A stretch of DNA of 31,575 bases from a virus. The stretch is from the IMG/VR virus record IMGVR_UViG_3300027852_000127, positions 1 through 31,575 of that record. One strand, written 5' to 3'. A program made the position numbers and the translations under genes. The notes under the pieces are model-generated. The model saw nothing but the letters and a program-made list of their open reading frames with translations, was not told the DNA's origin and searched no databases. Positions 10,473 to 31,575 of this stretch are shown one piece after another; positions within the stretch are counted from its first letter, which is position 1; each line of letters starts with the position of its first letter.

Positions 10473-12113
10473 ATGTCTCAATTAGTTGACCAATATGGCC
10501 ACCCACTTCGAAAAGAAGACTTAACCACCCCGCAGACCGACGATGCTAGGTTAGGCCATTTACATAAACATTATGCTGAACACCCAAGTAAGGGCTTATC
10601 CCCTGCTAAATTGGGCGGTATTTTATTACGTGCTGAGCAAGGCGACATTATTGCGCAATGTGAATTGGCCGAAGACATGGAAGAAAAAGACACACATCTG
10701 TTTTCTGAATTACAAAAGCGCCGCTTGTGTATGAAGTCTGTGCCTTGGAAGTTAGTACCGCCGCGTAATGCCAGTGCTGCAGAGTTGCGCGACACTGAAA
10801 TGCTGCAAGAGCTGTTTGAAGACATGCTCTTTTTGCAAGATACCTTTTTCGATATGTCTGACGCTATTTTAAAAGGCTTTTCTCACAGTGAAATAACCTG
10901 GCAACAAGAAGAAAAACTATGGGTACCACATGCAATAGACTTTAAAGATCCTGCTTGGTTTATGGTTAACGCTGATAATCGCAATGAACTCCGCTTACGT
11001 GATAACAGTATCGACGGCGAAGCACTAAATCCCTTCGGCTGGATCCAACATATTCATAAAACAAAATCGGGCTATGTTTCACGTAATGGTTTAGCGCGCG
11101 TATTAGCATGGCCGTACATTTTTAAAAACTTTTCAATTCGTGATTTAGCCGAGTTTAATGAAATCTATGGTTTACCGCTGCGCGTGGGTAAATATTCTAC
11201 GGGTGCCACACCAACCGAAAAGCGCACACTTTTACAGGCCGTTATGGGGATAGGTCATAACGCAGGTGGCATTATTCCTAAAGGCATGGAAATTGAATTT
11301 AATGAAGCCGCCAAAGGTAGTGAAAAACCCTTTGCGTACATGATGGAGTTTATGGAAAAAGCCATGAGCAAAGCCATATTAGGCGGCACGCTTACAAGCC
11401 AAGCAGATGGAAAAAGCTCAACCAATGCTTTGGGTAACGTACACGATGAAGTTCGCGGCGAATTACGCGATAGCGACCTTATTCAAATCGCTAGCACAAC
11501 AACCCGTGACTTAGTGCTGCCTATGTACATGTTCAATGGCAAAAGCTTCTCTAAACCTTCACGTTCGCCAAGATTAGAATTTGACACCACCGAAGCTGAA
11601 GATTTAAAAGAATTCAGTGAATCTTTACCAGGCTTAGTTGGCTTGGGTTTTCAAATACCATTGCGATGGGCACAGGATAAAGTGCAAATACCTGAGCCTA
11701 AAGACGGTGAAACAGTGTTAGGCATGGTCGCCCCAGAAAAAGTTCCGACTAAAGAAATCGATACCTTACCTGGTAAAGATGCACCTAAAGACAAACCAAC
11801 AACCAAAGCGCAAACCAAGCTAAAAAATATGGCCATAACCAAGCTTGTTGCATTAAAAGCTAAAGCTGAAGCGGTGCCAGAAAAAGACACAGCTGAATTG
11901 TTTGCTCAGCAATTGGCCGAAGGTTTTAGCCCTATATTGCAAGGTTTTAATGATGACATTGAAGAGCTGATCAACAACGCAACCTCACTTGAAGAGCTGC
12001 AAACCCAACTTAACGGCATGAATTTGTCCATTGATGAAGCCAGTGAAGTAATGCAGCTGGCACTTGTCGCGGCAGAACTTGGCGGCATGGCAGACGTAGA
12101 GGATGGTGAGTAA
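10473..12113 (+). CDS. DUF935 portal protein (Mu gp29-like)
   Basis: A 546-aa portal that forms the DNA channel at the head vertex. Family traits are an N-terminus with YGHPLRKEDLTTPQTDDARL, then DIIAQCELAEDMEEKDTHLF followed by SELQKRRLCMKSVPWKLVPP, FSHSEITWQQEEKLWVP, and a core with LARVLAWPYIFKNFSIRDLA then EFNEIYGLPLRVGKYSTGAT. A Lys/Pro-rich linker (about 420-455) precedes a helical C-terminal extension of about 90 residues (LFAQQLAEGFSPILQGFNDD). AAGGAG lies about 10 nt before ATG 10473. The stop overlaps the start of a 24-codon ORF that bridges to the MuF gene. Confidence 0.93.
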   Translation: MSQLVDQYGHPLRKEDLTTPQTDDARLGHLHKHYAEHPSKGLSPAKLGGILLRAEQGDIIAQCELAEDMEEKDTHLFSELQKRRLCMKSVPWKLVPPRNASAAELRDTEMLQELFEDMLFLQDTFFDMSDAILKGFSHSEITWQQEEKLWVPHAIDFKDPAWFMVNADNRNELRLRDNSIDGEALNPFGWIQHIHKTKSGYVSRNGLARVLAWPYIFKNFSIRDLAEFNEIYGLPLRVGKYSTGATPTEKRTLLQAVMGIGHNAGGIIPKGMEIEFNEAAKGSEKPFAYMMEFMEKAMSKAILGGTLTSQADGKSSTNALGNVHDEVRGELRDSDLIQIASTTTRDLVLPMYMFNGKSFSKPSRSPRLEFDTTEAEDLKEFSESLPGLVGLGFQIPLRWAQDKVQIPEPKDGETVLGMVAPEKVPTKEIDTLPGKDAPKDKPTTKAQTKLKNMAITKLVALKAKAEAVPEKDTAELFAQQLAEGFSPILQGFNDDIEELINNATSLEELQTQLNGMNLSIDEASEVMQLALVAAELGGMADVEDGE

Positions 12114-12187
12114 TGTTGAGCAAATTTCTTAAACGCTATCAGCGATGGTGCAAGCACATAACTAGTAAGCGAGTAAAAAGTGCCTGA
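12113..12187 (+). CDS. 24-residue basic micro-ORF bridging portal and MuF genes
   Basis: ATG 12113 overlaps the portal stop (TAATG), and the ORF encodes a 24-residue peptide (MLSKFLKRYQRWCKHITSKR plus VKSA) that stops at 12185-12187, just inside the MuF gene, which starts at GTG 12180. Start overlap and basic amphipathic composition suggest that it is translated, either as a tiny protein or to carry ribosomes to the weak GTG start of MuF. There is no comparative evidence, so it is tentative. Confidence 0.35.
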   Translation: MLSKFLKRYQRWCKHITSKRVKSA

Positions 12188-13616
12188 AGTCCGTTATGGT
12201 TCGCTACCGTTTCAAGAGTCGATAGATTTTTTCAGAAATAAACTAAACATTTCTACTGAGCGTTGGAATGATGTTTGGCGAAATGGTCACAACAACGGCT
12301 TTATGATAGCCGGAGCCATGAAGGATGATTTGCTGAATGACTTCAGGAAAATGGTTGATAGCGCCATTAGCGAAGGTAAATCAATCGGCTGGCTGAAAAA
12401 AAACTTTAAAGAAATACGAGCAAAGCATGGTTGGGATCATACAGGTTCAAGTGCCTGGCGTAGTCGTGTAATTTACGACACTAACATGCGACAAAGCTAT
12501 AACGCTGGGCGCTATGAACAGTTGCAGCACTTTGATGTTTGGGAATATCAGCACGGTGATAGTTTGCACCCGCGCGAATTACATTTGTCCTGGCATACAC
12601 TGCGCTTACCCAAAACCGATAAATTTTGGTTAACGCATTTCCCGCAAAATGGTTGGGGCTGTAAATGTAAAGTACGTGGTAGAACAAAAGCATGGTTAGC
12701 ACGCCATGGCCATGTAATCGACTTAGCACCAAAAGATGGTTCATGGGAATGGGTAGACAAAGTAACGGGCGAAGCCCATGTAATACCAAAAGGTATTGAC
12801 CCTGGCTTTGACTATGCCCCACGAAAGCAAGCCGTATCGAAAAATTTAAAACAACTGGCTGATAAAAAAGCAAAACCATTTACGCCACCCCCACGTGTCG
12901 CTAAAACGGCATTTAGTACCGTACCAGGTGCAGATGTGCATAGCTTGAACAAAGTACTAAATGAACTAAAAACAACAAGCGCTGCGCCTGAAATAGCGCT
13001 GCTTGAAAAGTTTTTAACTCAACATGAGACTAAAACGCTCTTTCTTCAACAAAAAGAAATGAACCCCAAAGCGATAGCAGCGACTAAAGTGGTTAATGAT
13101 ATTGAAGCGTATTTAGGCAAGCATCCTCGATACAGCACCATATCGTTATTCACCGACAGAGGCTATTTACGCGCCGAAGGTTTTACCTCAAGCGCATTTG
13201 AACACGTCGTGCTTAAAGGTATTGGTAAGCTTTCAAAGGTTGATTTCAACGAGGTTAAGCATGCGATACAAGCAGGTATACTGCTTAAAGAAGCAAATAA
13301 AAGCGCGCTCACGTTCTCTGAAATACTTAAGCAGCATGGCCTCAATGGCGAAAATGGTGCTATGCTGACAAATTGGATACATGAGATCGGCCATCAAATT
13401 CATTTTAAAGCGGGTTCGCCATACAAGCCTTTATTTAAAACGGCAACGAGTGGCAGTACCATTACTCGTTATGCTCAGCAAAACCATTATGAATGGCATG
13501 CTGAAATGTTTGTTGCTTGGTTGTTGGACCGCAAAGCATTAGCAAACTGGAATGAAGAAATAACGGCCTACATGGACAACTTAGTAAACAATGCAATTAA
13601 CAAAGGTAATAAGTAA
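12180..13616 (+). CDS. MuF head-morphogenesis protein with C-terminal HEIGH zincin-like domain
   Basis: A 478-aa protein from GTG 12180; the first residues PEVRYGSLPFQESIDFFRNK match the usual MuF start. Residues 1-215 are the phage minor head (Mu gpF) domain: DTNMRQSYNAGRYEQLQ, HGDSLHPRELHLSWHTLRLP, FWLTHFPQNGWGCKCKVRGR. A linker rich in Lys/Pro follows. Residues about 270-478 form a separate domain with H401-E-I-G-H405 (WIHEIGHQIHF) and downstream E438/E442 (NHYEWHAEMFVAWLLD), the HExxH+E layout of zinc metallopeptidases. MuF proteins with variable toxic C-termini are a known class of phage polymorphic toxins. The enzyme could also act during head assembly. The 90-aa next gene may be its immunity protein. 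Confidence 0.85.
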   Translation: MPEVRYGSLPFQESIDFFRNKLNISTERWNDVWRNGHNNGFMIAGAMKDDLLNDFRKMVDSAISEGKSIGWLKKNFKEIRAKHGWDHTGSSAWRSRVIYDTNMRQSYNAGRYEQLQHFDVWEYQHGDSLHPRELHLSWHTLRLPKTDKFWLTHFPQNGWGCKCKVRGRTKAWLARHGHVIDLAPKDGSWEWVDKVTGEAHVIPKGIDPGFDYAPRKQAVSKNLKQLADKKAKPFTPPPRVAKTAFSTVPGADVHSLNKVLNELKTTSAAPEIALLEKFLTQHETKTLFLQQKEMNPKAIAATKVVNDIEAYLGKHPRYSTISLFTDRGYLRAEGFTSSAFEHVVLKGIGKLSKVDFNEVKHAIQAGILLKEANKSALTFSEILKQHGLNGENGAMLTNWIHEIGHQIHFKAGSPYKPLFKTATSGSTITRYAQQNHYEWHAEMFVAWLLDRKALANWNEEITAYMDNLVNNAINKGNK

Positions 13617-13888
13617 TGGCTGATTTATTAGCAACAATTCAACAAGGTTTAGCGAAAGGCACCATTGCCGAACAAGCTAGCCCAATTGTCGATGAAGCGC
13701 TAAAGCTTGTTTCTAATACGGAAATACCGTTTCAAGAACGCCTACCTAAAATTTATGTGTTAGTAGATAAAGCCGCAGCAGCTGGTGGTGTTGAAAAAGA
13801 GCGCTGTGGTTATGTGATTGAAAGTTTATATGCCCAAGCCAGTGAAACTGAACTTGATTTGCTAAACGCATACCAGGACAAAGCGTAA
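13616..13888 (+). CDS. 90-aa acidic helical protein after MuF (immunity candidate)
   Basis: Overlaps the MuF stop by one base (TAATG) and the next gene by one base. The protein is acidic and all-helical (ATIQQGLAKGTIAEQASPIV, EALKLVSNTEIPFQERLPKI, RCGYVIESLYAQASETELDL), with no signal or membrane segment. I do not recognise it. In polymorphic toxin loci the gene directly after the toxin domain often encodes immunity, and size, charge and coupling fit that. The alternative is a small structural or assembly protein of this phage lineage. Confidence 0.7.
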   Translation: MADLLATIQQGLAKGTIAEQASPIVDEALKLVSNTEIPFQERLPKIYVLVDKAAAAGGVEKERCGYVIESLYAQASETELDLLNAYQDKA

Positions 13889-14334
13889 TGGCGGGGTCGT
13901 TTGTCTCAATCGATTTACTGGGTGATGAAGCCATTACCAAAGCGTTAAACACAATGCTTGCCCGTGGTTTAGATCTCGCTCCTGCGTTTTATGAAATGGG
14001 TGAGCACATATTAGAATCAACGCAAGATAGAATGAGCCAAGAACTAAGCCCTGATGGCACGCCATGGGAGCCGCTTAGTATCAACACCATTGAGCAAAAA
14101 GATTTAACTAACCAATCAGAGAAGATTTTACGTGGCTACGGCACATTAGCTGATACGCTCAGTTATCAAGTAAATAGTAACCAATTAATGTTTGGTTCAA
14201 ATTTAGAGTATGCGGCAACACATCAATTTGGACGAGACAAAGCAAACATTCCCGCAAGACCTTTCTTAGGCGTCAGCGGTGAAGACGAAACCGAAATACT
14301 CGACATATTGCGCTCACACCTTTCAGGCTCCTAA
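13888..14334 (+). CDS. phage virion morphogenesis protein (Mu gpG-like)
   Basis: A 148-aa protein of the Mu gpG/tail-completion family: helical N-terminus, then DRMSQELSPDGTPWEPLSIN with the conserved F/L-x-x-x-x-x-P-D-G-x-x-W-x-P-L, a KILRGYGTLADTLSYQV segment, and the hallmark YAATHQFGRDKANIPARPFL plus LG. This family works at the head-tail joining stage. The start overlaps the previous stop. It is the last gene of the first late operon: 228 bp without a gene follow, holding A/T-rich DNA and the second promoter-hairpin module. Confidence 0.9.
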   Translation: MAGSFVSIDLLGDEAITKALNTMLARGLDLAPAFYEMGEHILESTQDRMSQELSPDGTPWEPLSINTIEQKDLTNQSEKILRGYGTLADTLSYQVNSNQLMFGSNLEYAATHQFGRDKANIPARPFLGVSGEDETEILDILRSHLSGS

Positions 14335-14542: not shown

Positions 14543-14565
14543 CATGCTGCCATTCTGGCAGCATG
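14543..14565 (+). promoter_or_regulatory. stem-loop enclosing the protease start codon
   Basis: CATGCTGCCA - TTC - TGGCAGCATG is a perfect 10-bp stem with a 3-nt loop. The last ATG (14563-14565) is the start codon of the protease gene and pairs with CAT 14543-14545. Compared with 5471-5493, one base pair changes from A-T to C-G, so pairing is conserved. No Shine-Dalgarno lies between hairpin and start, so the structure may itself govern initiation. Confidence 0.7.
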
Positions 14566-15735
14566 AAAATTAAAAACTCTACTATCGCCATTTCGGCGTT
14601 AACAAATAAAAACAACACAGCCTTAGCTGTGTTGAGTTTTTCGGTCGGCTCACTTGATAATGCGCAAAACAATCGAGTGCAATTATTACCTAGTGGTCAG
14701 TTTTCATCTAAAGATGGACGCCCTCACGATGTTGATGGTGGTAAGTGGTTAATGGACAAAGAAGCCTTTGCTATTTTAAAAGCAAATGCTGCTTTGCGTA
14801 CAAACGACTACCACTTTGATTACGAACACCAAACCATGTACACCGAAGAAAATGGTAAGCCTGCACCTGCAGCAGCTTGGTTTGAAGACTTTGAATACAT
14901 TGAAGGCGAAGGTTTATTTGCCTTAAATGTTAATTGGACACCCGATGGCCAAAAAGCGGTAGATGACAAAGAGTATCGTTATACCTCTGCAGTTTTCTCA
15001 TACGACACTAAAACAGGCCGCCCCACCAGTTTAATGCACGTTGCTTTAACCAATGACCCTGCGGTTGATGGCATGAAAGCTATTGCTGCTTTAAAAGCAA
15101 ACCCTCATTCACCCGATAAAACTAACCCTACTGGAGAAAACCACATGCCTGAACTACTGAAGGTATTGCTTGGCAAAATTGGTATTGAAATCCCTGCAGA
15201 TTTTGACACCAGTGCTGCCGCATTGAAAAAAGTTGAAGCCGATGCTGTAACCGCAATTGCCGCTTTAAAAACTAAAGGCGATAAGTCTGGCCAATTAGAA
15301 AAGGATTTAAACATTGCTCAACAAAATGTTGCTTCGCTAAAAGCTGGGGGCGCAAAAGGCGTTGACCCAACTAAGTTTGTGCCTGTTGAGACTTATAACA
15401 CGGTAAATGCTGAGTTAGCGGCATTAAAAAACGGTACTGATGAAAACTCAGTTGACCAATTGTTAAAAGACAATGCGGCCAAAATTACCGGCCAAGCAGA
15501 CCGTGATTATTTACAAAGCGTAGGCCAAAGCCAAGGCTCAGCCGCATTAAAAGCCATGCTTGAGCCACGAATTGCCATTGCCGCATTAACAACCACTCAA
15601 ACCCAAGGTAAAGAAAAGCCTAAAAATAAAGATTCGGGTGAAAACTTAAGCACTGAGCAAATTGCCATGTGTAAAAACATGGCGCTTTCTCAAGAAGAAT
15701 TTAAAGCAGAAATAGCCAAAGGCACAGGAGAATAA
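14563..15735 (+). CDS. Mu I-like prohead protease/scaffold
   Basis: A 390-aa protein matching Mu-like prophage I protein. Its N-terminal protease half (residues about 20-190) has VQLLPSGQFSSKDGRPHDVD, HFDYEHQTMY (His-containing active-site region), PAAAWFEDFEYIEGEGLFAL, WTPDGQKAVDDKEYRYTSAV and MHVALTNDPAVDGM. The C-terminal half (about 195-390) is an Ala/Lys-rich coiled scaffold. In Mu, I matures the head and releases a scaffold encoded in the same frame. The chosen ATG lies inside a hairpin and has no Shine-Dalgarno; ATG/GTG alternatives downstream would cut into the conserved region only after residue 25 or so, so the true start might be a little later. Confidence 0.88.
   Translation: MKIKNSTIAISALTNKNNTALAVLSFSVGSLDNAQNNRVQLLPSGQFSSKDGRPHDVDGGKWLMDKEAFAILKANAALRTNDYHFDYEHQTMYTEENGKPAPAAAWFEDFEYIEGEGLFALNVNWTPDGQKAVDDKEYRYTSAVFSYDTKTGRPTSLMHVALTNDPAVDGMKAIAALKANPHSPDKTNPTGENHMPELLKVLLGKIGIEIPADFDTSAAALKKVEADAVTAIAALKTKGDKSGQLEKDLNIAQQNVASLKAGGAKGVDPTKFVPVETYNTVNAELAALKNGTDENSVDQLLKDNAAKITGQADRDYLQSVGQSQGSAALKAMLEPRIAIAALTTTQTQGKEKPKNKDSGENLSTEQIAMCKNMALSQEEFKAEIAKGTGE
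15145..15735 (+). CDS. nested in-frame scaffold protein (Mu Z-like internal start)
   Basis: Inside the protease gene, ATG 15145 is in frame (codon 195) and is preceded by GGAGA with 7 nt spacing, the best ribosome site in the gene. Initiation here would give a 196-aa scaffold (MPELLKVLLGKIGIEIPADF onward) without the protease domain. Mu and lambda both make their scaffold from such an internal start, so this is likely functional. Confidence 0.7.
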   Translation: MPELLKVLLGKIGIEIPADFDTSAAALKKVEADAVTAIAALKTKGDKSGQLEKDLNIAQQNVASLKAGGAKGVDPTKFVPVETYNTVNAELAALKNGTDENSVDQLLKDNAAKITGQADRDYLQSVGQSQGSAALKAMLEPRIAIAALTTTQTQGKEKPKNKDSGENLSTEQIAMCKNMALSQEEFKAEIAKGTGE

Positions 15736-15737
15736 TC

Positions 15738-16148
15738 ATGGCGTTATCTAAAGATAAAGGCACCTTACAAAAAGGTGGCAATTTACTTGTGCTTGCCCTA
15801 GCTGCAGGTGCAGTTATTCACGGCGGAGCCATTGTAGTCATTGATGCAGGTTACGCCAATAAAGCCACCACAAAAGTGGGCTTGAAATTTGGTGGTATTG
15901 CAGAAGAAGCGGTTGACAATTCTGCAGGTGGCAATGGCGAAAAAAGTATTGAAGTGCGTCGTGAACGCTTGTTTTTTGCTAAGAACAGTTCGGGTGATTC
16001 GATTGCTCAAGCTGATTTATTTAATCAATGCTATTTGGAAGACGACGAAACCGTTGCCAAAACCAATGGCGGTAATACACGTTCATTAGCAGGTCGCATT
16101 ATGCAAGTCGACAGCAATGGCATTTGGGTAAAAGGAGAACTAGCATGA
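15738..16148 (+). CDS. capsid decoration/stabilisation protein
   Basis: A 136-aa beta-rich protein placed between scaffold and major capsid, the usual place of head decoration (gpD/DUF2190-type) proteins. Gly/Ala-rich strands (LLVLALAAGAVIHGGAIVVI, VGLKFGGIAEEAVDN), an ERLFFAKNSSG segment and a C-terminal LAGRIMQVDSNGIWVK fit the DUF2190-like beta-tulip fold, in which D-x-x-G-V/I-W-V ends the domain. It overlaps the capsid start by ATGA. The family call rests on pattern and synteny. Confidence 0.7.
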   Translation: MALSKDKGTLQKGGNLLVLALAAGAVIHGGAIVVIDAGYANKATTKVGLKFGGIAEEAVDNSAGGNGEKSIEVRRERLFFAKNSSGDSIAQADLFNQCYLEDDETVAKTNGGNTRSLAGRIMQVDSNGIWVKGELA

Positions 16149-17071
16149 TTGTAAATAAAGCCGCTATTCAAGCAGCATTCATGGCCATTAAAACGATTTT
16201 CAACAAAACGTTTGAAGCCCACGAATCGCAATATGAGAAAACAACTACGGTAGTGCCGTCATCAACAAAAACTGAAGATTATACGTGGTTTGGTAGCTTT
16301 CCTCGTATGCGTAAATGGATTGGCGAAAAAGTACTAAATCGTTTATCTGCCTCTAAATATTCATTAACCAATGAAGATTTTGAAGTCACCATTGAAGTTG
16401 ATCGTAACGACATCGAAGATGACAAAATGGGCCAGTACTCCATTCAAGCGCGTGATGGTGGCCAAGCCGCTAAAGAGTTACCTGATGACTTGATTAATGA
16501 AGCCAAAGACAAAGCGTTCACGACTTTGTGTTATGACAATCAGTTTTTCTACGACACTGACCACCCTGTTTTTAACCCAGTTACACAAGAAGATGAAAGC
16601 GTTTCTAACAAATTAACAGCGCCGTTAAGTTGGGAAAACAAAGCTGAAGCAGATGCCTCTATCGGTGCTGCAATTCTTATGATGACTGGCCTTAAAGATG
16701 AACATGGCCGTAAGCTAAAAATTGTGCCTGACACGCTTGAAGTATCAAGAGCATCTGCAACAGCGGCCCGTATGTTAGCAACCAGTAAAAAGTTTGCCGA
16801 TGGAACTGTAAACCCATATTTCGGTGAAATTACCAACATCATTGTTAATCCAGGGCTAACCAGTAATACCCAGTGGATGTTGCATTGTACTTCACGTCCT
16901 ATCAAGCCTTTCTTGTATCAAAACCGCAAAGCGCCTGTGTTTGTTAGTCAAACTGACTTAAATAGCGATGACGTGTTTAGCAAGAAAAAATTGAAGTTTG
17001 GTGCTGAAGCACGTGCAGTAGCTGGTTATACCTTATGGCAGTTGTCAGTGGGTTCAACGGGTACAGGTTAA
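16145..17071 (+). CDS. major capsid protein (Mu gpT-like)
   Basis: A 308-aa HK97-fold major head subunit of the Mu gpT family. ATG 16145 overlaps the decoration gene stop and has GGAG about 7 nt upstream. Recognisable blocks are AAFMAIKTIFNKTFE, YTWFGSFPRMRKWIGEKVLN, KYSLTNEDFEVTIEVDRNDI, YDNQFFYDTDHPVFNP and the C-terminal GAEARAVAGYTLWQLSVGS. It would assemble hexamers and pentons of the icosahedral head. A hairpin terminator follows 22 bp after its stop, so capsid mRNA may be partly insulated from the tail genes. Confidence 0.95.
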   Translation: MIVNKAAIQAAFMAIKTIFNKTFEAHESQYEKTTTVVPSSTKTEDYTWFGSFPRMRKWIGEKVLNRLSASKYSLTNEDFEVTIEVDRNDIEDDKMGQYSIQARDGGQAAKELPDDLINEAKDKAFTTLCYDNQFFYDTDHPVFNPVTQEDESVSNKLTAPLSWENKAEADASIGAAILMMTGLKDEHGRKLKIVPDTLEVSRASATAARMLATSKKFADGTVNPYFGEITNIIVNPGLTSNTQWMLHCTSRPIKPFLYQNRKAPVFVSQTDLNSDDVFSKKKLKFGAEARAVAGYTLWQLSVGSTGTG

Positions 17072-29891: not shown

Positions 29892-29951
29892 ACTTTTCGC
29901 AGTTTTCGCAGTTTTCGCAGTTTTCGCCAATACTTTTCGCGCGCGGCATCA
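29892..29951. repeat. phage right end: five TTTTCGC repeats and terminal ...GGCATCA
   Basis: TTTTCGC occurs at 29894, 29903, 29912 and 29921 (exactly 9 bp apart) and again at 29934, directly before GCGCGGCATCA, which ends at 29951. Read inward from the end, the DNA starts TGATGCCGCGCGCGAAAA. From memory the Mu right end starts TGAAGCGGCGCACGAAAA, giving 15 of 18 identical bases. GCGAAAA is the conserved half of MuA-binding sites, so the array is the likely transposase-binding region. The end could alternatively be placed at 29948, another CA. Confidence 0.85.
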
Positions 29952-30800
29952 GCACAGCATCATTAAACTGATTGTTTCATCTAAAAATAATGTTCCCCAT
30001 AAAATGCCAAAAACTGGAATTAAATAGGTAACAGATATAGCTTTTGCGGGGCCTAATTCAGCGATAAGACGAAAAAATATAATATAGGCAACACCGGTAC
30101 AAATAACGCCAATAAGTATCACCGAGCCAATGGCTTTTGCACTGGGTAATGTTTCAGGGATAAAAAATAAGCTCATTGGTAACAGTATGGCACTAGCCGT
30201 AATTTGACTGCCGGCAGCTAAAGCTAATGGCTTGATATCGGTTAAATATTTTTTGGTATAATTTGCTGAAATACCGTAACAAAGTGCAGCTAACATTGCC
30301 GCTAACGTTGGCAATACCACATCCTTATCATTAAAAAATGCACTGTTATTACTGTCAAAGTGCCCATTTTCAGATACCAGTAAATATACCCCTAAAAAAC
30401 CAATAAAGAGTCCTAATGTCGCGCTTGGTGTTAATTTATCTTTTAACCAGAAATATGCCACGATAGCACCAAACATAGGTGTTGTTGCGTTCAATACTGA
30501 AGTTGTTCCTGCGGTTAACGTTAGTGTGGCATAACCAAAAAGAGCAAAAGGCATTGCGGTATTTAATGCCCCGACAACAAATATCCTTCGCCAACGTCCA
30601 TTGAGTGCTTTGGTTTGTTTAAATAAAACTAAGCAGCTAAACAAGAATATAGCGCCAATGCTAGCACGCAATGTAGTGAACAATATCGGACCAAATTCAG
30701 GTGCGCCAATGCGCATAAACATGAATGAAGCACCCCAAATGCTCGCTAACAGTAGTAATTCTATCGTGGCTTTATAGTTTTTAAGGTTAAAGGTATTCAA
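29949..30800 (-). CDS. EamA/DMT-family permease, 3' end cut off by the prophage
   Basis: A host inner-membrane transporter of the drug/metabolite superfamily. The 283 residues start MNTFNLKNYKATIELLLLAS with IWGASFMFMRIG, the typical EamA first helix, and contain two EamA repeats (first about 15-145, second about 160-283; VTYLIPVFGILWGTLFLDE is the conserved helix 9 region). The family normally has a tenth helix after L-D-E-x-I-S-x-x-M-L-x-G. Here the frame ends MMLC then TGA, where TGA (29951-29949) is the first three bases of the phage. The transporter thus lacks its last helix and is probably inactive; the missing piece should lie left of the prophage. Substrate unknown. Confidence 0.88.
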   Translation of the reverse strand: MNTFNLKNYKATIELLLLASIWGASFMFMRIGAPEFGPILFTTLRASIGAIFLFSCLVLFKQTKALNGRWRRIFVVGALNTAMPFALFGYATLTLTAGTTSVLNATTPMFGAIVAYFWLKDKLTPSATLGLFIGFLGVYLLVSENGHFDSNNSAFFNDKDVVLPTLAAMLAALCYGISANYTKKYLTDIKPLALAAGSQITASAILLPMSLFFIPETLPSAKAIGSVILIGVICTGVAYIIFFRLIAELGPAKAISVTYLIPVFGILWGTLFLDETISLMMLC

Positions 30801-30910
30801 TCGCTTCTCTTGTGAATGCTGATATTGATGAGCTTTGCTAGCAGTTTAGCGTTTAACGTTATCTGTACTCGCGATAATCGGGCGATTGATATAAATAATC
30901 TCAGCGGAGA

Positions 30911-31575
30911 TCAAACAGGTGAAGGCTTGTTTATTTCAACAGAGATGACCCTAATGGTATGGCTACCATCGAATTGCCACTGAATATTAAATTCATACAA
31001 GCTCATACCGTAGATTTTATTGTCAGCATGTTTTTGTTTATAAGCCGGGCGAGGGTCTTGGCTTAGTACCTGCTCAATGAGTTGACGTAGTTTTGGGTAT
31101 GATGATGAATATTCATCAATAACTGTTACTGCAGCTGCAGTAAATATGATGCTAAGGTCATTCGTTGGTTGCTGATGGGCATATCCGCCTTGGGCATCAG
31201 CAATAATATCGGCATAGGGAACATAAGGCTTAATATCGACTATCGGGGTGCCATCAAGTAAATCAAATTCACTTATATGCAAAATAACCTGCGAGCCTTG
31301 ATGCTCGGCTTGTAGCTCTATTTCGTCGAGCTTTACCACCGACATGCCAATAGGATTGGGTCTAAACGTTGAGCGTGTTGCCAATACGCCGAGCTTTTTA
31401 TTACCGCCTAAGCGTGGTGGGCGTACTAAGGGTTTCCAACCTTGTGCTAGGGTGCCATGAAAAACAAATATTAGCCAAATATGGCTAAACTGCGCTAAAC
31501 CTCTGACCAATTCAGCATTATTGGCCGTTCCTGTTAGGCGTATTTGCCCTTGTGCTGCGGTGACAATGCCGGGTT
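30911..31575 (-). CDS. trmO: tRNA (adenine37-N6)-methyltransferase TrmO, 5' end outside window
   Basis: A host enzyme that uses SAM to methylate N6 of t6A37 in tRNA-Thr(GGU). The frame is open to the right edge, where PGIVTAAQGQIRLTG and LVRGLAQFSHIWLIFVFHG match the TsaA/TrmO N-terminal part; the first 20-30 residues are missing. Later hallmarks are LGVLATRSTFRPNPIGMSVV, HISEFDLLDGTPIVDIKPYV plus PYADII, and DPRPAYK with YGMSLYEFNIQW near the C-terminus. Stop near 30911. It reads in the same direction as EamA with 110 bp between, and is unrelated to the phage. Confidence 0.92.
   Translation of the reverse strand, partial: PGIVTAAQGQIRLTGTANNAELVRGLAQFSHIWLIFVFHGTLAQGWKPLVRPPRLGGNKKLGVLATRSTFRPNPIGMSVVKLDEIELQAEHQGSQVILHISEFDLLDGTPIVDIKPYVPYADIIADAQGGYAHQQPTNDLSIIFTAAAVTVIDEYSSSYPKLRQLIEQVLSQDPRPAYKQKHADNKIYGMSLYEFNIQWQFDGSHTIRVISVEINKPSPV

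Follow-up and report, generated by a model that had tools for sequence, protein, structure and literature searches.

The window analysed here, the whole 31,575-base stretch of the IMG/VR virus record IMGVR_UViG_3300027852_000127, holds the late genes of a Mu-like transposable phage. The MuF head protein of this phage ends in an extra C-terminal domain (C-domain) that is, by its modelled fold, an M34-like gluzincin, and the next open reading frame (ORF) encodes a small acidic protein of 90 residues, referred to here as the partner. The two genes share one base, the final A of the MuF stop codon TAA being the A of the partner's ATG. The pair probably consists of an effector protease, which the MuF head domain would carry within the virion, and its inhibitor or immunity protein, which would act in the producing cell. 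The features of the pair are as follows.

12180..13616, + strand: MuF gene, GTG start, 478 residues (ORF call)
12180..12824, + strand: MuF head domain, residues 1-215, with the PF04233 core at residues 54-165 (Pfam E 3e-11; phrog_220 minor head protein E 2e-77; alignment)
12825..12899, + strand: linker, residues 216-240, Pro/Lys-rich and variable (alignment)
12900..13613, + strand: C-terminal M34-like gluzincin domain, residues 241-478, isoelectric point (pI) about 9.1 (alignment, AlphaFold (AF2) model, Foldseek)
13380..13394, + strand: H401-E402-I-G-H405, zinc-binding His pair and catalytic Glu (invariant in the alignment; 100/100 relatives)
13470..13472, + strand: Tyr431, expected position of the M34 transition-state Tyr, its role assigned by analogy (invariant in the alignment)
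13491..13505, + strand: E438, expected third zinc ligand, to E442, second shell, in E-xx-AE, roles likewise by analogy (invariant in the alignment)
13616..13888, + strand: partner gene, 90 residues, acidic, predicted all-helical, candidate inhibitor or immunity protein (phrog_18304 family profile)

An ORF check agreed with the first-pass annotation of the window on both genes, on their one-base overlap and on the acidity of the small product (pI 4.45, net charge -6). The residue numbers given there for the HEIGH motif (401-405), Glu438 and Glu442 are also right, and Tyr431 can be added as a further key residue. The head part does end near residue 215, as had been proposed, with MuF-type conservation extending to about residue 214 in the alignment, but the alignment and the start of the structure model place the extra domain at residues 241-478 rather than 270-478.

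The C-domain belongs to a family that is reached only by profile. Single-sequence searches with it had no match in genomes and, in IMG/VR, matched only another copy of this phage. Among annotated phages, the C-terminal part alone matched Vibrio ZX4290 and Pseudoalteromonas HS6 (33-35% identity). A three-sequence profile that included these was needed to reach the wider family, and it matched 29 IMG/VR loci and 26 loci of bacterial genomes. The MuF proteins that carry this domain (zincin-MuFs) come mostly from marine Gammaproteobacteria, including Colwellia, Shewanella, Pseudoalteromonas, Idiomarina, Rheinheimera and Aeromonas, and relatives are found as prophages within bacterial chromosomes, which fits a temperate phage. 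In 30 aligned domains the invariant columns include H401, E402, G404, H405, Q406, Y431, E438 and E442 (H161, E162, G164, H165, Q166, Y191, E198 and E202 in domain numbering). The HEIGH motif is not a chance occurrence, since the full motif HExGHQ...Y-x6-E-xx-AE is intact in all 100 complete unique relatives. Two short chromosomal proteins, of 174 residues (L183:1204-1728; loci are numbered with L) and 159 residues (L187:1249-1728), stand alone with the same HE-x-G-H...E core, and no phage head genes adjoin them in the stretch read.

A zincin layout had been proposed from the motif, and structure prediction followed by a Foldseek search bore this out. The AF2 model of the C-domain has a mean pLDDT (predicted local distance difference test) of 95.4 and a pTM (predicted template modelling score) of 0.93. 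Its Foldseek matches in the PDB are the catalytic domains of lethal factor (prob 1.00, E from 4.5e-4) and PPEP-1/Zmp1 (prob at most 0.98), with nothing else close, and a PDB profile search with the C-domain family gave a best E of 3e-4. Tyr431 is likened to the Tyr of M34 enzymes, Y178 being mutated in PPEP-1 entries among the Foldseek matches, and the Y-x6-E spacing from Tyr431 to E438 is the M34 layout. By its modelled fold the C-domain is an M34-like gluzincin, kin to lethal factor and PPEP-1. It has the fold and the active-site layout HExxH...Y-x6-E-x3-E of the M34 gluzincins (ATLF PF07737, PPEP-1/Zmp1), but it differs from them in its low identity (about 15%, with a TM (template modelling) score of about 0.46), in having no cell-targeting parts and in its place on a phage head protein. 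PF07737 was matched weakly by 9 of the 30 members (best E 0.002) and gave no match to the window protein. Because the C-domain falls below the cut-off of this Pfam model, it is labelled M34-like and not a member of ATLF. No Pfam or NCBIfam model for the C-domain was found.

The partner is opposite in charge to the protease domain across the family, the median pI being 4.4 for the partner and 9.4 for the zincin. The window partner is predicted to be all-helical (pLDDT 81), and a PDB fold search with its model gave no significant match. PHROG 18304, a family of unassigned function, is matched by 21 of 32 aligned members (best E 1.5e-35). Pairwise BLAST among the small ORFs did not link the window copy to those of ZX4290 or HS6, so its homology rests on the family profile, which does join it to both. 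Weak matches of this profile inside large proteins (L167, L168) were set aside as noise.

Zincin and partner occur together. When the small gene was scored by stop-to-stop reading, it was found behind 120 of 120 zincin-MuFs with enough downstream sequence, or 44 of 44 distinct ones after collapse at 90% head-domain identity. Loci that seemed to have a zincin without a small ORF were artefacts of start-codon choice, and stop-to-stop reading removed all of them. The first-pass annotation held that the small gene should not occur beside MuF proteins lacking the domain, and it was seen behind none of 11 such proteins (12 were scored, and L016 was left out as frameshifted). The loci in these counts are related by descent, so a Fisher value on them is not a true probability. 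A scan of 296 genomes placed the partner next door in 10 of 10 strong zincin matches, and in Aeromonas it lies beside the zincin-MuF in 5 of 5. L016 was rejected as a locus without zincin. This relative of ZX4290 (L016:3258-4660, head domain 99% identical) has a linker frameshift that leaves MuF in two parts, a 222-residue head and a 237-residue zincin, and the partner is present further on, intact.

The two also leave together. The C-domain was expected to be variable among related phages, and close relatives were indeed found to be short or to carry PBECR2. At L086 the head domain is up to 75% identical to that of zincin-type MuFs, yet the C-terminus is a PBECR2 nuclease and there is no partner. 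At L073, whose head domain shares 74% identity with that of a zincin type, and at L141 and L144 (62%), the MuF protein ends after the head domain and gpG comes next, with no zincin or partner. No partner is present in phages UMP151, B3, phiSHP3, AFS-2018a and RR1-B, whose MuF C-termini are of other kinds, and YPCBV-1 lacks both C-domain and partner. L182 and L184 have distant zincins on a different, SPP1-gp7-like MuF backbone, and a partner-family ORF follows there as well (E about 1e-5). Two loci depart from the usual spacing or content. At L143:5431-6183 the partner ORF lies 560 bases downstream of the zincin-MuF with no same-strand ORF of at least 30 residues between them, a possible insertion or decay. 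At L222:526-2201 a more distant zincin-MuF of 504 residues is followed by an unrelated 54-residue Cys-containing ORF in the partner's place and then by gpG; this ORF may encode another inhibitor, matched to another type of protease.

The partner has also changed in step with the protease domain. Over 55 representatives, mean identity falls from 62% in the head domain to 47% in gpG, 39% in the zincin and 27% in the partner. With all other genes controlled for, the partial correlation of pairwise distances is 0.58 between zincin and partner (partial Mantel p 0.0005), 0.05 between head domain and partner, and -0.05 between gpG and partner, even though gpG adjoins the partner on its other side. 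Such co-evolution is to be expected of a specific functional pair but is no proof of contact.

Partner homologues are also found in hosts. Of 37 Aeromonas genomes, 19 have stand-alone copies with no accompanying zincin, and in 14 of 18 (those with an EamA match at the cut-off applied) the copy lies directly 3' of an EamA transporter gene. The median dN/dS (ratio of nonsynonymous to synonymous substitution rates) of these copies is 0.15, which indicates purifying selection. A tree of low support groups them beside the Aeromonas phage copies, inside the phage-borne diversity. Orphan immunity genes are a usual feature of polymorphic toxin systems, and polyimmunity loci have been discussed (PMC11699363). 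The Aeromonas stand-alone copies are probably orphans of this kind. At L171:1495-1988 (- strand), two divergent stand-alone copies lie in tandem between glycosidase-like and PAS-domain-like genes.

A Pfam scan gave the order of the late genes in the window as terminase small (PF11985) and large subunits, Mu portal, MuF, the 90-residue ORF, gpG, Mu-I protease and gpT capsid. The neighbours of the pair that bear on its role are the following.

10473..12113, + strand: Mu-like portal protein gene, 5' neighbour of MuF (PF06074 E 2e-97)
13888..14334, + strand: gpG-like virion morphogenesis or neck protein, 3' neighbour of the partner gene (PF05069 E 8e-34)
14563..15735, + strand: Mu-I head maturation protease/scaffold gene (PF10123 E 8e-85)
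16124..17071, + strand: Mu gpT-like major capsid protein (PF10124 E 2e-77)

The MuF gene thus sits in the head and packaging module. The pair is embedded in the late operon, and no promoter-like site was seen 5' of the partner gene. In phage HS6 (L004:6700-7154) gpG is annotated as two genes of 80 and 67 residues, where the relative L021 has one ORF of 150 residues; the split is likely a frameshift or sequencing error in the record. Beyond the tail genes, on the - strand at 29949-31510 of the window, there are EamA transporter and TrmO genes, which are probably host chromosome at the right end of the integrated prophage. No partner-family ORF was found beside this EamA gene.

How might the pair work? 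By analogy with other MuF proteins, the head domain would place a few copies inside the capsid near the portal, and the C-domain, presumably an active M34-like zinc endopeptidase, would leave with the DNA at infection. The protease may then cut at least one host protein and so poison or take over the cell, or blunt a defence. In the producing cell, the co-translated acidic partner would bind the basic protease domain and keep it inactive, acting as an immunity protein in the sense of the MuF polymorphic toxins. The first-pass annotation had already called the small ORF a candidate immunity gene, and the proposal is now backed by co-evolution with the protease domain alone, by opposite charge and by the stand-alone chromosomal homologues. 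Since no promoter of the pair's own is visible in the late operon, protection by the partner is more likely during assembly than in a silent lysogen, for which lasting protection would call for something like the chromosomal orphans.

Several points weigh against this proposal. With no visible partner promoter, a silent prophage probably makes no partner, and lysogens may be unprotected. The Foldseek TM-scores to PDB entries are modest (mostly 0.42-0.47). Most zincin-MuFs hold their C-domain type over long evolutionary distances, with fewer swaps than in classic polymorphic toxins, and the PBECR2 relatives have no small gene, so that some MuF effectors of these phages can do without one. Virion packaging, injection, proteolysis, toxicity and partner binding are inferred, in part from tested MuF toxins with other enzymes, Apk2/IapK and Bxa/Bsi.

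An alternative that we regard as unlikely is that the zincin works inside the phage, processing MuF or another head protein in assembly, with the small protein as an assembly chaperone or timed inhibitor. Pro-Pro is the kind of bond cut by PPEP-type M34 enzymes and is present in 59 of 102 linkers, but no Pro-Pro site is universal, and autoprocessing there was set aside on that count. The place of the pair in the late operon would suit a role in assembly, and metallopeptidase (MPTase) domains of polyvalent phage proteins have been suspected of autoprocessing (PMC5512222). Stand-alone chromosomal homologues of the partner, however, make little sense as assembly factors. Head maturation in particular, which the first-pass annotation had left as an alternative, is unlikely because the phage has its own dedicated Mu-I protease (PF10123 at 14563-15735) and close relatives assemble with a nuclease or nothing in the zincin's place. 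The zincin is therefore neither the only head protease of the phage nor conserved with the capsid genes.

It is also improbable that the small protein is a required helper of the protease, such as a folding chaperone, a head loader or a substrate adaptor, with its host homologues unrelated in role or targets of the protease. Strict co-occurrence and co-evolution suit any obligate partner and not an inhibitor alone, and the host homologue could be a substrate that the phage protein mimics. However, in the MuF systems of two experimental studies a non-enzymatic neighbour neutralises the toxin (PMC12226406, PMC11699363), an acidic partner and a basic enzyme suggest blocking of the active site, and the orphans fall, at low support, within the phage-borne diversity beside the Aeromonas phage copies, as expected if they were captured. 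A structural relic without activity, with the small ORF as its passenger, would fit the lack of a Pfam match in the C-domain of the window protein, but this reading is highly improbable given that all catalytic positions are conserved in the 100 relatives and that zincin and partner are gained and lost jointly as a cassette.

The reading as a virion-borne protease with its own inhibitor agrees with known systems. MuF metallopeptidase toxins with small downstream ORFs are an already described class. Among 191 MuF polymorphic toxins of temperate phages, 20% have a metallopeptidase domain, and a small ORF comes next in 89.4% (Jamet et al. 2017, PMC5576092). The phage described here has in common with them a MuF N-terminal domain encoded in the packaging module, a variable C-terminal domain, here a candidate effector, that is exchanged between relatives, and a small downstream ORF that is tied to this domain. 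The toxin domains of that set are enriched in Firmicutes, and many proteobacterial extensions were left there without a known domain (PMC5576092). Here, by contrast, the C-domain is covered by neither a Pfam nor an NCBIfam model, and the partner belongs to a family without a name. The prophage loci Apk2/IapK/Aph1 and Bxa/BAH/Bsi also combine a MuF head protein that has an enzymatic C-terminus with an adjacent small protein, and IapK and Bsi are small non-enzymatic proteins that block the adjacent MuF-borne enzyme by binding (PMC12226406, PMC11699363). The enzymes of these loci are a (p)ppApp synthetase and an ADP-ribosyltransferase, tested experimentally, whereas a zinc protease with one partner is predicted here from sequence and model. 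MPTase domains of polyvalent proteins are likewise zincins on phage proteins delivered with the virion, and a role as effectors or in autoprocessing has been proposed for them (Iyer et al. 2017, PMC5512222). Pfam scans of the window protein and the 30 alignment members gave no polyvalent MPTase model among the best 25 of 36 families, and the two-domain MuF architecture and the dedicated partner gene set the present system apart. PHROG 241 (head morphogenesis) ends in a domain that matches the zincin (best E 1e-6, 12 of 30 members), and a phrog_241 search in four host genomes gave no match. Neither the PHROG 241 nor the PHROG 18304 entry records the pairing of zincin and partner.

What is new is an M34-like subfamily in Mu-like phages, which the metallopeptidases of PMC5576092 may include, and a dedicated partner family with a hypothesis for its function, the swap to PBECR2 and the host orphans. 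Metallopeptidase MuFs have been predicted as virion-delivered toxins, and no experimental test of one was seen in the papers found. The zincin-MuF family is a clean system for such work, with intact active sites, a partner of one gene and relatives of similar head domain in which a nuclease naturally replaces the zincin or nothing does, and the pair is present in two named phages, Pseudoalteromonas HS6 and Vibrio ZX4290. Both PHROG 18304, which is unnamed, and a small Aeromonas chromosomal gene also gain a hypothesis for their function. It is possible, although doubtful, that the partner gene was captured by hosts, in which it would serve as a permanent shield against the phage-injected protease. 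If so, the phage head-protease and the chromosomal orphans would be in an arms race, and the orphan would be a single-gene anti-phage defence outside current catalogues.
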